A DNA stretch of 60,043 nucleotides from Actinomycetes bacterium (lineage in GTDB: Bacteria; Actinomycetota; CALGFH01), in assembly GCA_036000965.1 (NCBI GenBank), contig DASYUT010000311.1:1-60043 (forward strand). Direction: 5' to 3'. Position 1 is the stretch's first letter, and each line of letters opens with the position of its first letter. Below, in pieces: positions 1,649 through 60,043 of the stretch. Made by a program: the position numbers and the translations under genes. The notes beneath the pieces were generated by a model. The model saw nothing but the letters and a program-made list of their open reading frames with translations, did no database searches and was not told where the DNA came from.

Positions 1649-1706
1649 ATGGGGGAGAGCGATGGGGGAGAGGCACCCGGTGAATCAGCCCGACCGAGGG
1701 CCGGTC

Positions 1707-1904
1707 ATGACCGAGAAGTGGCGGAAGAGTTCGCGGAGTGCCAGCAACGGCTGCGTGGAGGTCGCCATCGAACCGCCAGTGGTCCTCATGCGCGACTCGA
1801 AAGACCCCTGCGGGCCCCGCCTGGCCTTCACCACGGCGGAGTGGGCCTCGTTCGTGGCAGGGGTGAAAGCCAGCGAGTTCGACCTCCCCGAAGGCACACC
1901 ATGA
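1707..1904 (+). CDS. DUF397 domain protein
   Basis: 65 residues from ATG 1707. Upstream in-frame starts at 1662 (ATG) and 1680 (GTG) would add up to 15 residues. The sequence WRKSSRSASNGCVEVA, then RDSKDPCGP, then FTTAEWASFVAGVK is the full DUF397 pattern. In actinomycetes DUF397 proteins are usually encoded next to an XRE regulator and act with it. Here no such partner is adjacent; the nearest candidate round the circle is the regulator at 54069. It is the last gene of the operon, before the terminator at 1943. Confidence 0.85.
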   Translation: MTEKWRKSSRSASNGCVEVAIEPPVVLMRDSKDPCGPRLAFTTAEWASFVAGVKASEFDLPEGTP

Positions 1905-1942: not shown

Positions 1943-1980
1943 GAAGCGCCCCGGTGGGGACCGGGGCGCTTCCTCTATTT
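1943..1980 (+). terminator. Intrinsic terminator of the rightward operon
   Basis: Perfect 13-bp stem (1943-1955 with 1960-1972), four-base loop, then CTCTATTT. It follows the DUF397 gene by 38 bp and separates the rightward block from the leftward tRNA. Confidence 0.85.
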
Positions 1981-1988
1981 GGTTGTCG

Positions 1989-2063
1989 TGGGCCCGGAGG
2001 GATTTGAACCCTCGACCTCTGGGTTATGAACCCAGCGGGCTGGCCAGCCTGCCCTACGGGCCG
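1989..2063 (-). tRNA. tRNA-Met (CAU), initiator-like
   Basis: A full cloverleaf folds on the minus strand: D stem GGGC/GCCC, anticodon stem CTGGG/CCCAG, loop TTCATAA, T stem GAGGG/CCCTC with loop TTCAAAT, discriminator A. The acceptor pairs at positions 2-71 to 7-66, but position 1 faces 72 as C opposite C. An unpaired 1:72 and three consecutive G-C pairs (GGG/CCC) beside the anticodon loop are the hallmarks of initiator tRNA. CCA is not encoded. A TAGAAT box at 2075-2070 could start transcription at the mature 5' end. Confidence 0.9.
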
Positions 2064-2086
2064 GACCAGATTCTAGCCCGAACGCC

Positions 2087-2122
2087 AACGAGCGCCCCAC
2101 CCGAAAAGGTGGGGCGCTCGTT
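2087..2122. terminator. Strong hairpin upstream of the tRNA
   Basis: Perfect 15-bp stem (2087-2101 with 2108-2122), six-base loop, followed on the plus strand by GTCTTTCT. It could stop plus-strand read-through or end the leftward late transcript before the tRNA. Confidence 0.7.
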
Positions 2123-2447
2123 GTCTTTCTCGTGGGCGGGGTGCTGAGACTGCTCGATCGGCCGCCCCTCGCCACTCGTAGCTTGTCGACCGGGCACCCA
2201 CTGGTGCCGGGCAGGCCCACCATCCCCGGCGAGTCAGGATCGGCGGGCAGCTCGCCTGAACGACCGTTCTCTCAGCGTGGCCACCACCAGCCCGGGTAGG
2301 ACCCGGCGGTATGGTGGCCCCCCTCTTTGGCGATTCTGCCGAGGATTCTAACAGCAGCAGCGCCTCCACCCGTGAAGGGCAGGGGCGCTGTGCGCCCGGA
2401 CACCGGGGCTCCAGCCATGGCCTAGCCGTGGCGGTCGGATTCTACCG
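2123..2447. other. Intergenic stretch with a long stem-loop
   Basis: No convincing gene. It holds an imperfect long hairpin at 2279-2319, with outer arms GGCCACCA/TGGTGGCC and inner arms CCGGGT/ACCCGG, followed on the plus strand by CCCTCTTT. The minus-strand box TAGAATC occurs at about 2346-2340 and 2440-2434, as it does just upstream of the tRNA, and may mark promoters. Confidence 0.5.
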
Positions 2448-2851: not shown

Positions 2852-3139
2852 TCAGGCGGGGACCCAGCGGCCCTCGCGGACGAAGCCATGGTCGCCGCAG
2901 CCTTGCGGGCACAGGATGGATGGCTCGATGTGGACCGGGTCTGTGTCCACGATCTGGTGGCCTGAGCGACGGTCGCCCCACTGCCCGAGCCACGACCAGC
3001 CCTTGGGTTCCGTCGTGCAGTCATGCCACCACAGATAGCCGACGACCGCGTCGTTGGTGATGAGGGCCATTGCGAAGTGCCGCTCGCCGAGGTCGACCAC
3101 GCCGGGCTCGCCCTCGGGATATGTCACGCTGGCACCCAT
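2852..3139 (-). CDS. CGxHGF-motif small protein, paralog 1
   Basis: 95 residues. The C-terminus reads EPSILCPQGCGDHGFVREGRW, a Cys/Cys/His cluster ending in a Trp-rich tail. The proteins at 3124-3438 and 3782-4075 carry the same tail, so these are three diverged copies. It resembles a small family widespread in actinobacteria and their phages (DUF6527-like), with no known function. The start overlaps the upstream gene by 16 bases. Confidence 0.75.
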   Translation of the reverse strand: MGASVTYPEGEPGVVDLGERHFAMALITNDAVVGYLWWHDCTTEPKGWSWLGQWGDRRSGHQIVDTDPVHIEPSILCPQGCGDHGFVREGRWVPA

Positions 3140-3438
3140 CGGTCCTCCCGGATGAACCCGTGGTCGCCGCAGTGGCACAGCAGCGACGGACTCAGGGTGA
3201 GCGGTTCCCATGACTCGACCGTCCACCGCGGCTTGTCTGGCAGCACCCGCCGCGCAGTGTCGCCGTCGAAGAAGATCGCGCCCTCGCACAGCGAACCGTC
3301 CGGGCGGCGGTGGGCGATGATCGCGCCGATCCGCTCCACGTCGGGGAGGTCGGCATACTGCGGGTTGAGCTCCCGGTCCGGCGCCCAGCTCGTGTAGCGG
3401 AGCGTGTGGTCGTGGCCGAGGTCGAGCGGGGCGCTCAC
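3124..3438 (-). CDS. CGxHGF-motif small protein, paralog 2
   Basis: 104 residues. The tail LSPSLLCHCGDHGFIREDRW matches paralogs 1 and 3. The N-terminal two thirds differ, so the copies diverged outside the putative metal-binding tail. It overlaps the HNH-like gene upstream by four bases (ATGA). Confidence 0.75.
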   Translation of the reverse strand: MSAPLDLGHDHTLRYTSWAPDRELNPQYADLPDVERIGAIIAHRRPDGSLCEGAIFFDGDTARRVLPDKPRWTVESWEPLTLSPSLLCHCGDHGFIREDRWVPA

Positions 3439-3785
3439 GGGTCCAGCGGGATGTCGGCCTGCGGGCCGAGCGCGTCCATGGCGACCTGGGCCAGCTTCCG
3501 GACGTAGCGGGTGTAGGGCCGGAGCTCGGCCTTGGTCGGTTTCCGGTCCTGCGTGCGGGCCTTGAGATGCACGCGCAAGCAGGCGTGGACGGCACTGTGG
3601 GAGGTCGGGCAGAGCAGCACCTGGTCGCCGTTGGCGGGGCCGTGGAACGGTGCACCGACCGGGATGATGTGGTGGCTCTCCTCCTCAGCCGGGACCGGGC
3701 GGTGCCAGCGGACGCACTGGCAGCGCACATCCCCGTAGGTGAGCCGCGTCGTCACATCGACCCCGGGCGGATGCGCCTGGGTCAT
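3435..3785 (-). CDS. HNH-like nuclease-fold protein
   Basis: 116 residues from ATG 3785. Motifs in order are CQCVRWH, ESHHIIPV and LLCPTSHSAVH. The HH pair before IIP and the C..SH..VH segment resemble the active-site strands of the HNH fold, and the short Cys motif may bind zinc. The gene sits inside the cluster of three CGxHGF paralogs with ATGA overlaps on both sides. Whether it cuts DNA cannot be judged; a head-packaging HNH would normally lie beside the terminase, not here. Confidence 0.65.
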   Translation of the reverse strand: MTQAHPPGVDVTTRLTYGDVRCQCVRWHRPVPAEEESHHIIPVGAPFHGPANGDQVLLCPTSHSAVHACLRVHLKARTQDRKPTKAELRPYTRYVRKLAQVAMDALGPQADIPLDP

Positions 3786-36146: not shown

Positions 36147-36333
36147 TCGCCTGCTCGCCCTCTGGGCCCTGCTACGGGGCTTGGAGGGCGTTCTGCATTG
36201 GGCGGATCCCCTATCCGGCTTGCACGTGGAACTACGGCTTGAGGGCGGCCGCCTCCATGCCCGCTGCTGGACCGACGACGACGAGACCGACGACGAAACG
36301 CCACCAGAAGGGGCGGATGATGCGCGATGGTAA
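36139..36333 (+). CDS. Small acidic-tailed hypothetical protein
   Basis: 64 residues from GTG 36139, overlapping the DUF3560 stop. A Leu-rich first part (LLALWALLRGLEGVLHWAD) is followed by an acidic tail rich in Asp and Glu. It overlaps the next ORF by 17 bases. Modest support. Confidence 0.45.
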   Translation: MRSRLLALWALLRGLEGVLHWADPLSGLHVELRLEGGRLHARCWTDDDETDDETPPEGADDARW

Positions 36334-36682
36334 CAATACGGCGGTTCCTGCCAGGGCAAGCCTTGTCGACCGTGCAGAGGTCACGATTGCTGGCGGCCGC
36401 ACAGTCAAAGTCGAGCTCTGGTCTGGTGAGGCTTCGGACGGCTACCAAACCGACTATCGACCGCGCCCGGCAGCATGGGTTGCGTGGATTCGCCTCGAGG
36501 GTGGCCGCGTCACCTACCGCTACGTCAAACGGTACACGGGCCGCAACTACCGCAAGTCCCAAACCGACTACAACGCGGCCGCCGCGGAGGTCAAGCGCGA
36601 GGCCGCCAAGCAGGCAGCAGCCAAGCAAGCGGCCAGCGGTCAAGCGGCCAATCTCGAGCGCGGCGCCAAGCAAGCCGGCTAG
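36317..36682 (+). CDS. Unknown domain upstream of and possibly joined to the sliding clamp
   Basis: 121 residues. A beta-rich core (RAEVTIAGGRTVKVELWSG, WIRLEGGRVTYRYVKRYTG) is followed by a Lys/Ala/Gln-rich helix up to the stop at 36682. From about 36645 the +1 frame turns into a Pro/Lys/Ala-rich linker that continues in frame into the sliding clamp with no start codon in between. The small domain and clamp may therefore be one protein joined by a frameshift, or one gene split by a recent or assembly indel. Confidence 0.6.
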   Translation: MMRDGNNTAVPARASLVDRAEVTIAGGRTVKVELWSGEASDGYQTDYRPRPAAWVAWIRLEGGRVTYRYVKRYTGRNYRKSQTDYNAAAAEVKREAAKQAAAKQAASGQAANLERGAKQAG

Positions 36683-36788
36683 CCCACCGAAGCCCGCCCA
36701 GCCACCGAAGCCTGCCCAGCCGGCTACTCCGCCGCGGCCTACCCCGCCACCTACCCCGCCGAAGCCGGCTACCCAAGGGACAGGCGGT

Positions 36789-37931
36789 TTGCATTTCGAC
36801 GTTGACCATGCCGAGCTCGTCCGCGCGCTCAAAGTCGCGGCTGGCACGTGCTCGCGTCGTCCGACCCTGCCCGTTCTGGGCGGAGTGAAGATCGAGGCGG
36901 CCGGCTGGGGCCGCCCGGTCACGATCACCACGACGGACCTTGAGTTGACCAGCACGACGCGGCTTGACTCGTCGCTGGTGGTCGACACTGGTGCCGTCGT
37001 GGTGCCGTTGCGCGAGCTCGCCGCAACCCTCAAGGGACGCCAGCCAAAGGGAACACTCGCGCGGCTCGAGCTCGACCAGGAAGCCGGCCTGCTGCGCATG
37101 CATGCTGGCGGCCTGCATGCGGCGCTCCACGTCAACGCGCTCGAGGACTATCCGACGTTGCGCGGCGAGGTCTCAGAGGGCGAGGTGCGCGTGACCTCCG
37201 ACCTCGGCCTGCTTGGCACGTGGGCGCGGCGGGTACTGCCAGCGACCAGCGGCGATGAGGCTCGCCCAGTGTTGACCGCGGTCCAGGTCAAGCGCGACCA
37301 GGGCACGCTGACCGCGACCGCGACCGATTCCTATCGCCTCCACACCTACCAGACCGAACAGCTAGACGATTCGGCGTTTTGCTTCCTGCTACCCGCCCGG
37401 GCGCTCACCCTGGTCAAGCAGGCCATCGCGCTGTACAAGGCGACCGAGGGCGGCGCCTGGTGGCATGGCACGGGCACCGACACACACGGCACGGGCGAGG
37501 TGCGCGTGCAGGTTGGGCCGTCGATGTTCTGGGCCCGGGCCATAGAGGGCGAGTTTCCCTCCACTTGGGAGCGGCTGATCCCGACCATGACGGGCGATGT
37601 GCCAACCATCGACGTCACCGATGGTGCGGCGGCCGCCGCGGCGATCGTGGCATCGTTCGGACGCGAGCCGATCATCCTCGAGGCGAGCGGCGCGACCATC
37701 GCCGCCTCGTGCAAGCGGCAGGACATCGGCAAGGTCGAGGCGGAACTACCAGGCCTGAAACTGGCAGGCTACACGCCGTTCACCCCTACCAGCTTCAAGC
37801 CGCTGTACCTACGTGAGCTGCTGGCCGCGGTCGACCACGGGACGATGCAGCTCCGGGATAGCCTCAAGCCGGCTTTGGTGACCGATGGTAACGGCTTCCG
37901 CGGCCTGATCATGCCCGTTCGCATCCCCTAG
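36789..37931 (+). CDS. dnaN: DNA polymerase III beta subunit-like sliding clamp
   Basis: 380 residues from TTG 36789 (AAGGGA about nine bases upstream), the usual clamp length. LVRALKVAAGTCSRRPTLPV opens the first domain. Later signatures are TLTATATDSYRLHTYQ in domain two and LKPALVTDGNGFRGLIMPVR at the C-terminal edge. Three repeated clamp domains can be traced. The protein encircles DNA and tethers a polymerase. No polymerase is encoded in this genome, so the host replicase is the probable partner. The reading frame extends upstream as a Pro-rich segment without a start. Confidence 0.85.
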   Translation: MHFDVDHAELVRALKVAAGTCSRRPTLPVLGGVKIEAAGWGRPVTITTTDLELTSTTRLDSSLVVDTGAVVVPLRELAATLKGRQPKGTLARLELDQEAGLLRMHAGGLHAALHVNALEDYPTLRGEVSEGEVRVTSDLGLLGTWARRVLPATSGDEARPVLTAVQVKRDQGTLTATATDSYRLHTYQTEQLDDSAFCFLLPARALTLVKQAIALYKATEGGAWWHGTGTDTHGTGEVRVQVGPSMFWARAIEGEFPSTWERLIPTMTGDVPTIDVTDGAAAAAAIVASFGREPIILEASGATIAASCKRQDIGKVEAELPGLKLAGYTPFTPTSFKPLYLRELLAAVDHGTMQLRDSLKPALVTDGNGFRGLIMPVRIP

Positions 37932-54068: not shown

Positions 54069-54572
54069 GTGCCCACGGTCCTGCGCATCGACCCGGAGCT
54101 TGGTCGGAAGCTCGAGGCGGCCAGGAAGAGGCGTGGCTGGTCACTGGCGACCGTGGCCACGATGATCGGCCCAGTCGGCAATCCACCCAAGGGACTACGC
54201 GACACCCAGATCGGCCGGCTCGAGGCGGGGGAGCGCAACCTCACCGCCGAGGAGGCATGGCGCCTGGCGGACCTGTACTCCGAGATCGACGCCTGGAAGC
54301 TGCTGGAGGAGGCTCGCGCGGTCAGCCCGCTCTCATCCCCGGCGTTCAAGGATGCGGTCAGGGAGGAAGCGAGGCGACGCCGGTCGGGGGAAGCGATGGG
54401 CTTCCGCCGCTATGACATGGTGCTCGCGGCGGCCGCCGATGCGACTTCTGACCTGCACGATCACACTAAGGTCGGGTTGTGGGATCGCGCTGGTCAGCGC
54501 CCTACCCGGTCGGGACATCGCAAACTGCGCCGGATGGCCGAAGAGACCCAAGCACTCCCCATCCCGGCCTGA
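54069..54572 (+). CDS. XRE-family repressor-like regulator
   Basis: 167 residues from GTG 54069, eight bases after AAGGAGG; an in-frame ATG at 54048 lies ahead of that ribosome site and is less likely. LEAARKRRGWSLATVATMIG, then RDTQIGRLEAGERNLTAEEA, is the helix-turn-helix. The C-terminal half is charged and helical. It is transcribed towards the integrase and is the best candidate for the immunity repressor. Confidence 0.75.
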   Translation: MPTVLRIDPELGRKLEAARKRRGWSLATVATMIGPVGNPPKGLRDTQIGRLEAGERNLTAEEAWRLADLYSEIDAWKLLEEARAVSPLSSPAFKDAVREEARRRRSGEAMGFRRYDMVLAAAADATSDLHDHTKVGLWDRAGQRPTRSGHRKLRRMAEETQALPIPA

Positions 54573-54718
54573 GTAGCCAATTACTCACGAACACCGGCAA
54601 CTCCTCAAATGCCGTACTCGAATTACGTCGCTTTCATATGGTGAAAGCGGCCGGATCGCACGAGCATCGGAAACTCTCCCCATGGCAGCCGGTCTTCCCA
54701 AACCCATGGAAAGGGGCA

Positions 54719-55855
54719 CCGTTGCTCCCCCTCTGGACGGATCTCCTTGACCCCGGCGCGCGACGCGCGCTGCACCTCCACGTTGGCCACCTGAACCCCC
54801 GGACCATGCTGTACCTGTTCGTCGGCGCTGTGGTGCTGCTGATGGCTGACCGGGTCCGCCAAAACCTCGGCCTTGACGACGATTTCCCCCTGGTGGGGAT
54901 CGTCACCTTCGGCACGGCCCTGGACCGCTACCGGTCGTGGATGTGGATGGCCGGCCATGAGCAGCGAACCATCACCGACTACAGCCGCACGCTCAAGGCA
55001 TTCACCGACACGCTGCCCCGCGACGGCTCGGGCGAGCCACGCTGGCATGCACGCAACCTCCCCAAACACCTGGAACGATGGCTTGGCCAGCCGGCCAAGT
55101 CCGGGCCGAACCGGGGCGGGCCGAAGTCGGTCGCCACCCGCGCCCACGAGACCATGATCGCCCGCCGCTTCTACCACTGGTGCTCATCGATCAGCGCACC
55201 GCCGCTGCTCACCCGCAACCCGCTCGCCGGCGTGATCAGCCCCCGGGTGGGGGAGGGCCCGCCGCGGGACCTGCCCGACGAGATGGTCGCCGCGATCCTC
55301 GAGCTGGCCGAGAAGACCGACGAGCGGATGGGGATGATGTGCTGGCTCGCCTGGGCTGGGGGGCTGCGCTGCATGGAGATCGCCGGCGCCCGCATCGAAC
55401 GGTTCCGCGTCAGCGAGCAGGAAATCACCCTGCTTGTGCACGGCAAGGGCCGCAAACAGCGGATCATCCCCCTGCACCCGGCCGCCCACCAGTTCATCCG
55501 CAAGTACCTCATCAGGCGGCCGCAGACCGGGCCGCTGGTGGAGGGCCGCGACCACAATGGGCAGCCGACCGGCCGGCCGATGAAGCCGGCGACCGTCAGC
55601 GTGACGATGGGCCGATGGCTGCGCGCCAACGGCTTCCCGGCCTCAGCGCACCAGCTGCGCCACTCGATCGCCACGGCGATCTACCGGGCCGGCGAGGGCA
55701 CCAACATTGACCATCTGCAGCAGTTCCTCGGCCACGCATCGGCGAACACGACCCGCCGTTACGCCAAGGGATACACGTTGCAGGTCGGCCGCTGGTTGGA
55801 GCGCGTTCCCGACCCGCGGGACATCCCAGGCGACAGCCCTCGCCCGGCATGCTAG
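54719..55855 (+). CDS. Tyrosine site-specific integrase
   Basis: 378 residues from TTG 54719 (AAAGGGG six bases upstream); ATG 54638 would add 27. An N-terminal part with a hydrophobic helix (MLYLFVGAVVLLMADR) precedes the core-binding domain (RYRSWMWMAGHEQRTITDYS). Catalytic residues are Arg in GGLRCMEIAGAR, His-x-x-Arg in HQLRHSIATAIY, His in FLGHASANTT and Tyr in RRYAKGY. It would insert the circular genome into the host chromosome. No attP could be identified by eye. Confidence 0.9.
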   Translation, partial: PLLPLWTDLLDPGARRALHLHVGHLNPRTMLYLFVGAVVLLMADRVRQNLGLDDDFPLVGIVTFGTALDRYRSWMWMAGHEQRTITDYSRTLKAFTDTLPRDGSGEPRWHARNLPKHLERWLGQPAKSGPNRGGPKSVATRAHETMIARRFYHWCSSISAPPLLTRNPLAGVISPRVGEGPPRDLPDEMVAAILELAEKTDERMGMMCWLAWAGGLRCMEIAGARIERFRVSEQEITLLVHGKGRKQRIIPLHPAAHQFIRKYLIRRPQTGPLVEGRDHNGQPTGRPMKPATVSVTMGRWLRANGFPASAHQLRHSIATAIYRAGEGTNIDHLQQFLGHASANTTRRYAKGYTLQVGRWLERVPDPRDIPGDSPRPAC

Positions 55856-59670: not shown

Positions 59671-60043
59671 TGGGCCGCCGCGACGACCACCGCGGTGAGG
59701 GGCCGTGGCTGATGCTGTTCCTGGTGCTGCTGGCGGTGGGCGCCAAGCCTGCCGCGGAAGCCGCCACACCCCACCACCGTCGCACTCCCCCGCCAGCGCC
59801 GACGCCGGCGGCGGCGAGCTCGACCGGCCGGGCGGACATCCCGCCGGCCTACCTGGTGCTGTACCAGCGGGGCGCCCACGCCTGCCCGGGCCTGTCCTGG
59901 GCGGTGCTGGCCGGCATCGGGAAGGTCGAAACCAACCATGGGCGCTCGCGTGCTCCGGGCGTCGTCTCCGGGGTCAACCGGTTCGGCTGCTGCTCGGGGC
60001 CGATGCAGTTCAACATCCGCAACGGTCCGCCCTCGACGTGGGA
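59670..60043 (+). CDS. Secreted lytic transglycosylase (SLT-like), 5' part
   Basis: ATG 59670 overlaps the preceding TGA. Residues ~13-31 are a hydrophobic signal or anchor (WLMLFLVLLAVGAKPAAEA), followed by a Pro/Ala linker and the start of the catalytic domain (PAYLVLYQRGAHACPGLSWA). The frame continues at base 2 of the window after circular closure. A signal on a wall hydrolase lets it act without a holin, as in secreted endolysins or conjugation-type transglycosylases. Confidence 0.85.
   Translation, partial: MGRRDDHRGEGPWLMLFLVLLAVGAKPAAEAATPHHRRTPPPAPTPAAASSTGRADIPPAYLVLYQRGAHACPGLSWAVLAGIGKVETNHGRSRAPGVVSGVNRFGCCSGPMQFNIRNGPPSTW
59903..60043. repeat. Terminal direct repeat, right copy (circular closure)
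   Basis: Identical to bases 1-141. A short true terminal repeat of the virion DNA is less likely, because the repeat lies inside a coding region and not near the terminase genes, but sequence alone cannot exclude it. Confidence 0.95.

Follow-up and report, generated by a model that had tools for sequence, protein, structure and literature searches.

An initiator-type tRNA-Met as the sole tRNA gene of a complete tailed phage, evidently derived from the family of its host

Initiator-like tRNAs are found in several tailed phages, among them the Caulobacter CcrColossus-type phages, Erythrobacter phage R6L and Mycobacterium phage Myrna. Stenotrophomonas phage vB_Sm_QDWS359, also tailed, has such a gene annotated as tRNA-fMet and adjoining a tRNA-Ile. 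Phage tRNAs are mostly explained through codon usage, an argument that cannot account for a copy of the initiator, and a survey of Shigella flexneri phages found that they generally avoid encoding tRNA-fMet (PMC10264068). A literature search returned no study devoted to phage initiator tRNAs. The phage described here is likewise tailed and carries an initiator-like tRNA-Met; in contrast to QDWS359, this gene is its only tRNA and lies in the gap between plus-strand and minus-strand gene blocks.

The window, that is the whole stretch of 60,043 nucleotides analysed, is one entire contig (C311) of an assembled genome of 358 contigs. Its first 141 bp are repeated exactly at its other end (1-141 = 59903-60043), as is typical of closed circles, and we therefore read the contig as a circular molecule with a unit length of 59,902 bp that was binned with a bacterial genome. 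Because it encodes a terminase, a portal, a tape measure, a DnaB-type helicase and a tyrosine integrase (54479-55855), the contig is a complete tailed phage and probably a temperate one. A 20-kb stretch of it had no near match among annotated phages. Relatives of the terminase come from metagenomic phages (40-70% identity) and from one Nocardioides prophage (47%).

ARAGORN reported a single tRNA in the whole window, tRNA-Met(CAT), on the minus strand at 2063..1988, and the Rfam tRNA model placed it at 2063..1989 (60.5 bits, E 1.2e-10), a gene of 75 nt without CCA. The covariance-model fold, read on the minus strand, is CGGCCCG TA GGGC AGGCTGGCCA GCCC G CTGGG TTCATAA CCCAG AGGTC GAGGG TTCAAAT CCCTC CGGGCCC A. 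The earlier note had proposed an initiator from an unpaired C1 opposite C72 and from three G-C pairs beside the anticodon loop, and both features hold in this fold: C1-C72 is the only non-standard pair, and G29-G30-G31 faces CCC at 39-41 in an anticodon stem of CTGGG/CCCAG that closes the loop TTCATAA. The three consecutive G:C pairs at 29-31:39-41 occurred in none of 27 non-initiator CAU tRNAs (alignment A2). The third hallmark, a purine at 11 paired with a pyrimidine at 24, is present as G11:C24, where initiators of the phylum have A11:U24.

A classification of the tRNA as initiator or elongator, suggested as a check in the earlier note, was made with two covariance models. R1 was built on 23 distinct initiators taken from genomes of the host's phylum; the input of R2 was 27 CAU tRNAs of non-initiator type from that same genome set. 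The phage tRNA scored 73.7 bits with R1 and 67.7 bits with R2, a modest margin of +6 bits that is small because its acceptor stem resembles those of some non-initiator CAU tRNAs. Known non-initiators scored better with R2 by about 20-35 bits, these examples being part of the R2 input or near twins of it. All discrete hallmarks were of the initiator type. In E. coli, the base pairs C3:G70 and G4:C69 near the 1:72 mismatch aid formylation; both pairs are reversed in the phage tRNA, which counts against reading it as functional in initiation. Taken on its sequence, the tRNA at 2063-1989 is of initiator (fMet) type, an identity that is borne out by the hallmarks, by the model scores and by its near identity over positions 26-65 to the fMet of the host's family.

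The comparison with the host fMet was made on two genomes of the same family as the host bin (G001 and G002), in which the gene reads CGCGGGG TG GAGC AGTCTGGTA GCTC G CTGGG CTCATAA CCCAG AGGTC GAGGG TTCAAAT CCCTC CCCCGCC A CCA. Over positions 26-65 the phage tRNA is identical to both at 39 of 40 positions, the sole change being C32 to U32, while the best match among genomes of the phylum outside the family was 37 of 40 and the others were 27-35. The phage and host-family tRNAs share the CAU anticodon, C1-C72, the three G:C pairs, the purine 11:pyrimidine 24 pair, the variable loop and the T arm. The C-C mismatch, which the earlier note had treated as notable, is thus the ordinary form in the host's family, although C1-U72 is the majority form in the phylum. 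The copies differ in the acceptor and D stems, which are re-paired in the phage, in a phage D loop that is one base longer, at position 32, and at positions 8-9 (TA for TG).

Two-sided changes that keep pairing have reversed four of the six inner acceptor pairs (3:70 to 6:67) and turned one D-stem pair, 11:24, from A:U to G:C. Despite the changes in the acceptor stem, 1:72 remained unpaired. This pattern of two-sided changes with pairing kept points to selection acting on an initiator that folds. Given the 39/40 match to the family fMet and stem pairs that differ yet still pair, the gene evidently derives from a host, by capture from a close relative of this one within its family, and is probably functional. 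Recombination with another host-family tRNA was considered as the source of the acceptor stem and rejected, as no family tRNA examined matched well. Close twins of the phage tRNA with the same D arm were not found in IMG/VR.

The working interpretation that we favour, with a probability of about 0.62, is that the phage possesses in this gene a functioning copy of the host initiator tRNA, captured from the host's family, that tops up or replaces the fMet pool during infection. The source of the captured fMet gene would be a bacterium of that family; the acceptor and D stems would since have diverged through paired changes, with the features that define an initiator retained. Transcription would start from a small promoter of its own or come by read-through of late genes. 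Host enzymes would process the 5' and 3' ends and add CCA, the tRNA would be charged with methionine and then formylated, and its use in the ribosomal P site would supplement or replace host fMet-tRNA. The need for it may arise when infection raises demand or when cleavage of host tRNAs cuts supply. Since the copy is an initiator, codon supply does not explain it; the simplest reading, and the most likely role, is that it adds to the initiator pool or takes its place. A boost to initiation, as the earlier note suggested, is possible, but the reason given there, an abundance of GTG and TTG starts, does not fit the genome: a crude gene call that leans slightly to ATG gave 73 ATG, 22 GTG and 1 TTG.

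The flanks bear on how such a copy might be expressed. Strong hairpins do lie on both sides of the gene, as the earlier note had it. The upstream one (2080..2129) has 22-nt arms and a 6-nt loop (-38.0 kcal/mol, z -7.1), and the downstream one (1943..1972) has perfect 13-nt arms and a 4-nt loop (-29.3 kcal/mol, z -6.3). The terminator scores of both hairpins fall on the plus strand (for the upstream one at 2086-2123), so they look mainly like terminators for plus-strand genes whose ends lie before 1943. A possible -10 box, TAGAAT at 2075-2070, would place +1 at 2063, the mature end, as claimed; a -35/-10 pair for the gene, on the other hand, did not emerge from the consensus scan. In actinobacteria, CCA is templated mainly by initiator tRNA genes (PMC5143459). 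It is encoded in the host-family fMet genes and absent from the phage gene, which has CGA after A73, so that the phage tRNA would need CCA addition by the host.

We also considered whether the host depends on the phage for its fMet. No second fMet was found in the host bin by pattern search, and the bin yielded only 33 tRNA matches, so other tRNAs are missing too. In both same-family genomes the fMet gene lies some 50 bp after a UPF0182-like gene. The corresponding contig of the host bin continues for 21 bases past the matched part of that gene and then breaks off. A host without its own fMet was rejected on these grounds: the contig breaks where fMet is expected, an assembly gap is the best reading, and dependence on the phage copy is therefore unsupported.

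Initiator-like tRNAs were common in other viral sequences. At least 120 stretches in IMG/VR match a strict initiator pattern, and 542 phage records gave a match to the host fMet, which covered 80% or more of its length in 287 cases; the hallmarks were checked for only part of these records. The earlier note's implication that phage initiators are rare is contradicted by these counts, which also show that, outside the S. flexneri phages surveyed (PMC10264068), phages often encode tRNA-fMet. Of 84 distinct initiator-like tRNAs from viruses, 62 have no pair at 1:72, compared to 8 of 286 other tRNAs from the same stretches; since the 84 were chosen by anticodon arm and variable loop, 1:72 is an independent hallmark in this comparison. 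A single clear initiator-like tRNA-Met was present in five out of 23 terminase relatives, at places in the genome that differ between them, so that the initiator has been gained or kept repeatedly. All five score higher with R1 than with R2 and none has a standard 1:72 pair. A relative whose neighbouring gene is 81% identical has no tRNA in the 16 kb available; either that lineage can do without the gene or it lies elsewhere in that genome. Phage initiator copies thus turn out to be fairly common, usually labelled just 'tRNA-Met', and the copy described here is ordinary in kind. Some viral stretches carry several CAU tRNAs, and one IMG/VR locus (L182) also has a tRNA-Pyl(CTA) call.

An initiator-like tRNA was the sole tRNA in 54 of the IMG/VR stretches examined, some of which may be host genes at prophage edges. 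In 30 of the 54 the contig is at least 30 kb and the tRNA more than 5 kb from either end, although several of these may still be host DNA. The lone initiators favour a broader, tentative proposal, in which carrying a lone initiator tRNA is a strategy that recurs among phages and acts on translation initiation, either by adding capacity or by replacing a host initiator cut by defence toxins, and in which the strategy has been overlooked because annotation says 'tRNA-Met'. The recurrence merits a proper count. With pairs of host and phage initiators that differ at a few defined sites, it could be tested directly whether translation initiation is limited, protected or retuned by phages.

A rather unlikely alternative is that the tRNA serves as a decoy or spare that resists cleavage by host toxins of the VapC type that cut tRNA-fMet, with the C32-to-U32 change in the loop giving resistance. 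Changes in the anticodon loops of phage tRNAs have been proposed as a means of escaping such tRNA-cutting nucleases (PMC10264068). The only change from the host-family fMet over positions 26-65 falls in this loop, at a site that is C in all 23 distinct initiators of the phylum, and the host bin encodes five PIN-domain proteins. U32, however, occurs in only 4 of the 84 viral initiator-like tRNAs, so it is no general rule; it is no known resistance change, and cleavage of fMet is not known for any of this host's toxins. Replacement of an initiator cut by a PIN-type toxin is reasonably regarded as a special case of pool replacement.

We judge it slightly less probable still that the tRNA copy is an attachment site or its scar, the phage or an ancestor integrating in the host fMet by means of its tyrosine integrase, with a role in recombination and not in translation. 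From U33 to C66, over 34 nt, the phage tRNA matches the host-family fMet exactly, a stretch of the usual size and place for a tRNA attachment core, and in G002 another tyrosine integrase ORF (L051:1549-2184, minus strand) abuts the 3' end of fMet, which marks fMet as an integration target in the host family. That integrase is only distantly similar to the one of the phage (38% over 64 residues), whose own gene is about 6 kb from the tRNA around the circle. The match to the same-family fMet (that of the bin not being assembled) ends at position 66, short of the 3' end, which speaks against an attachment site that restores the host gene. As the 3' acceptor strand differs from that of the same-family hosts, a crossover would break four acceptor pairs in each of the two hybrid tRNAs. 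Nor does an attachment site need a full tRNA with both halves covarying. An attachment site nearer the integrase was sought and rejected, host-family tRNAs giving only chance-length matches elsewhere in the phage. That the gene is a passenger, a captured host gene drifting without function, is improbable: it is a lone tRNA that lacks a clear promoter and is absent from the available stretch of the relative with a similar neighbouring gene, but paired two-sided acceptor changes with a kept 1:72 mismatch are hard to obtain by drift, and such tRNAs are present at different places in five relatives.

Genes for DUF2637 and DUF397 proteins adjoin the tRNA, the latter (1662-1904, plus strand) directly before it, and their presence, too, is consistent with an actinobacterial host. 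In actinobacteria, genes for DUF397 proteins and their HTH partners are usually adjacent; here an HTH protein is encoded apart from the DUF397 gene, at 54069-54572, where it precedes the integrase. A search found no relatives of the minus-strand ORF at 2852-3730, which a later gene call suggests to be over-extended. The plus-strand gene at 36327-37931 encodes a protein whose C-terminal part matches the phage DNA polymerase processivity factor family.
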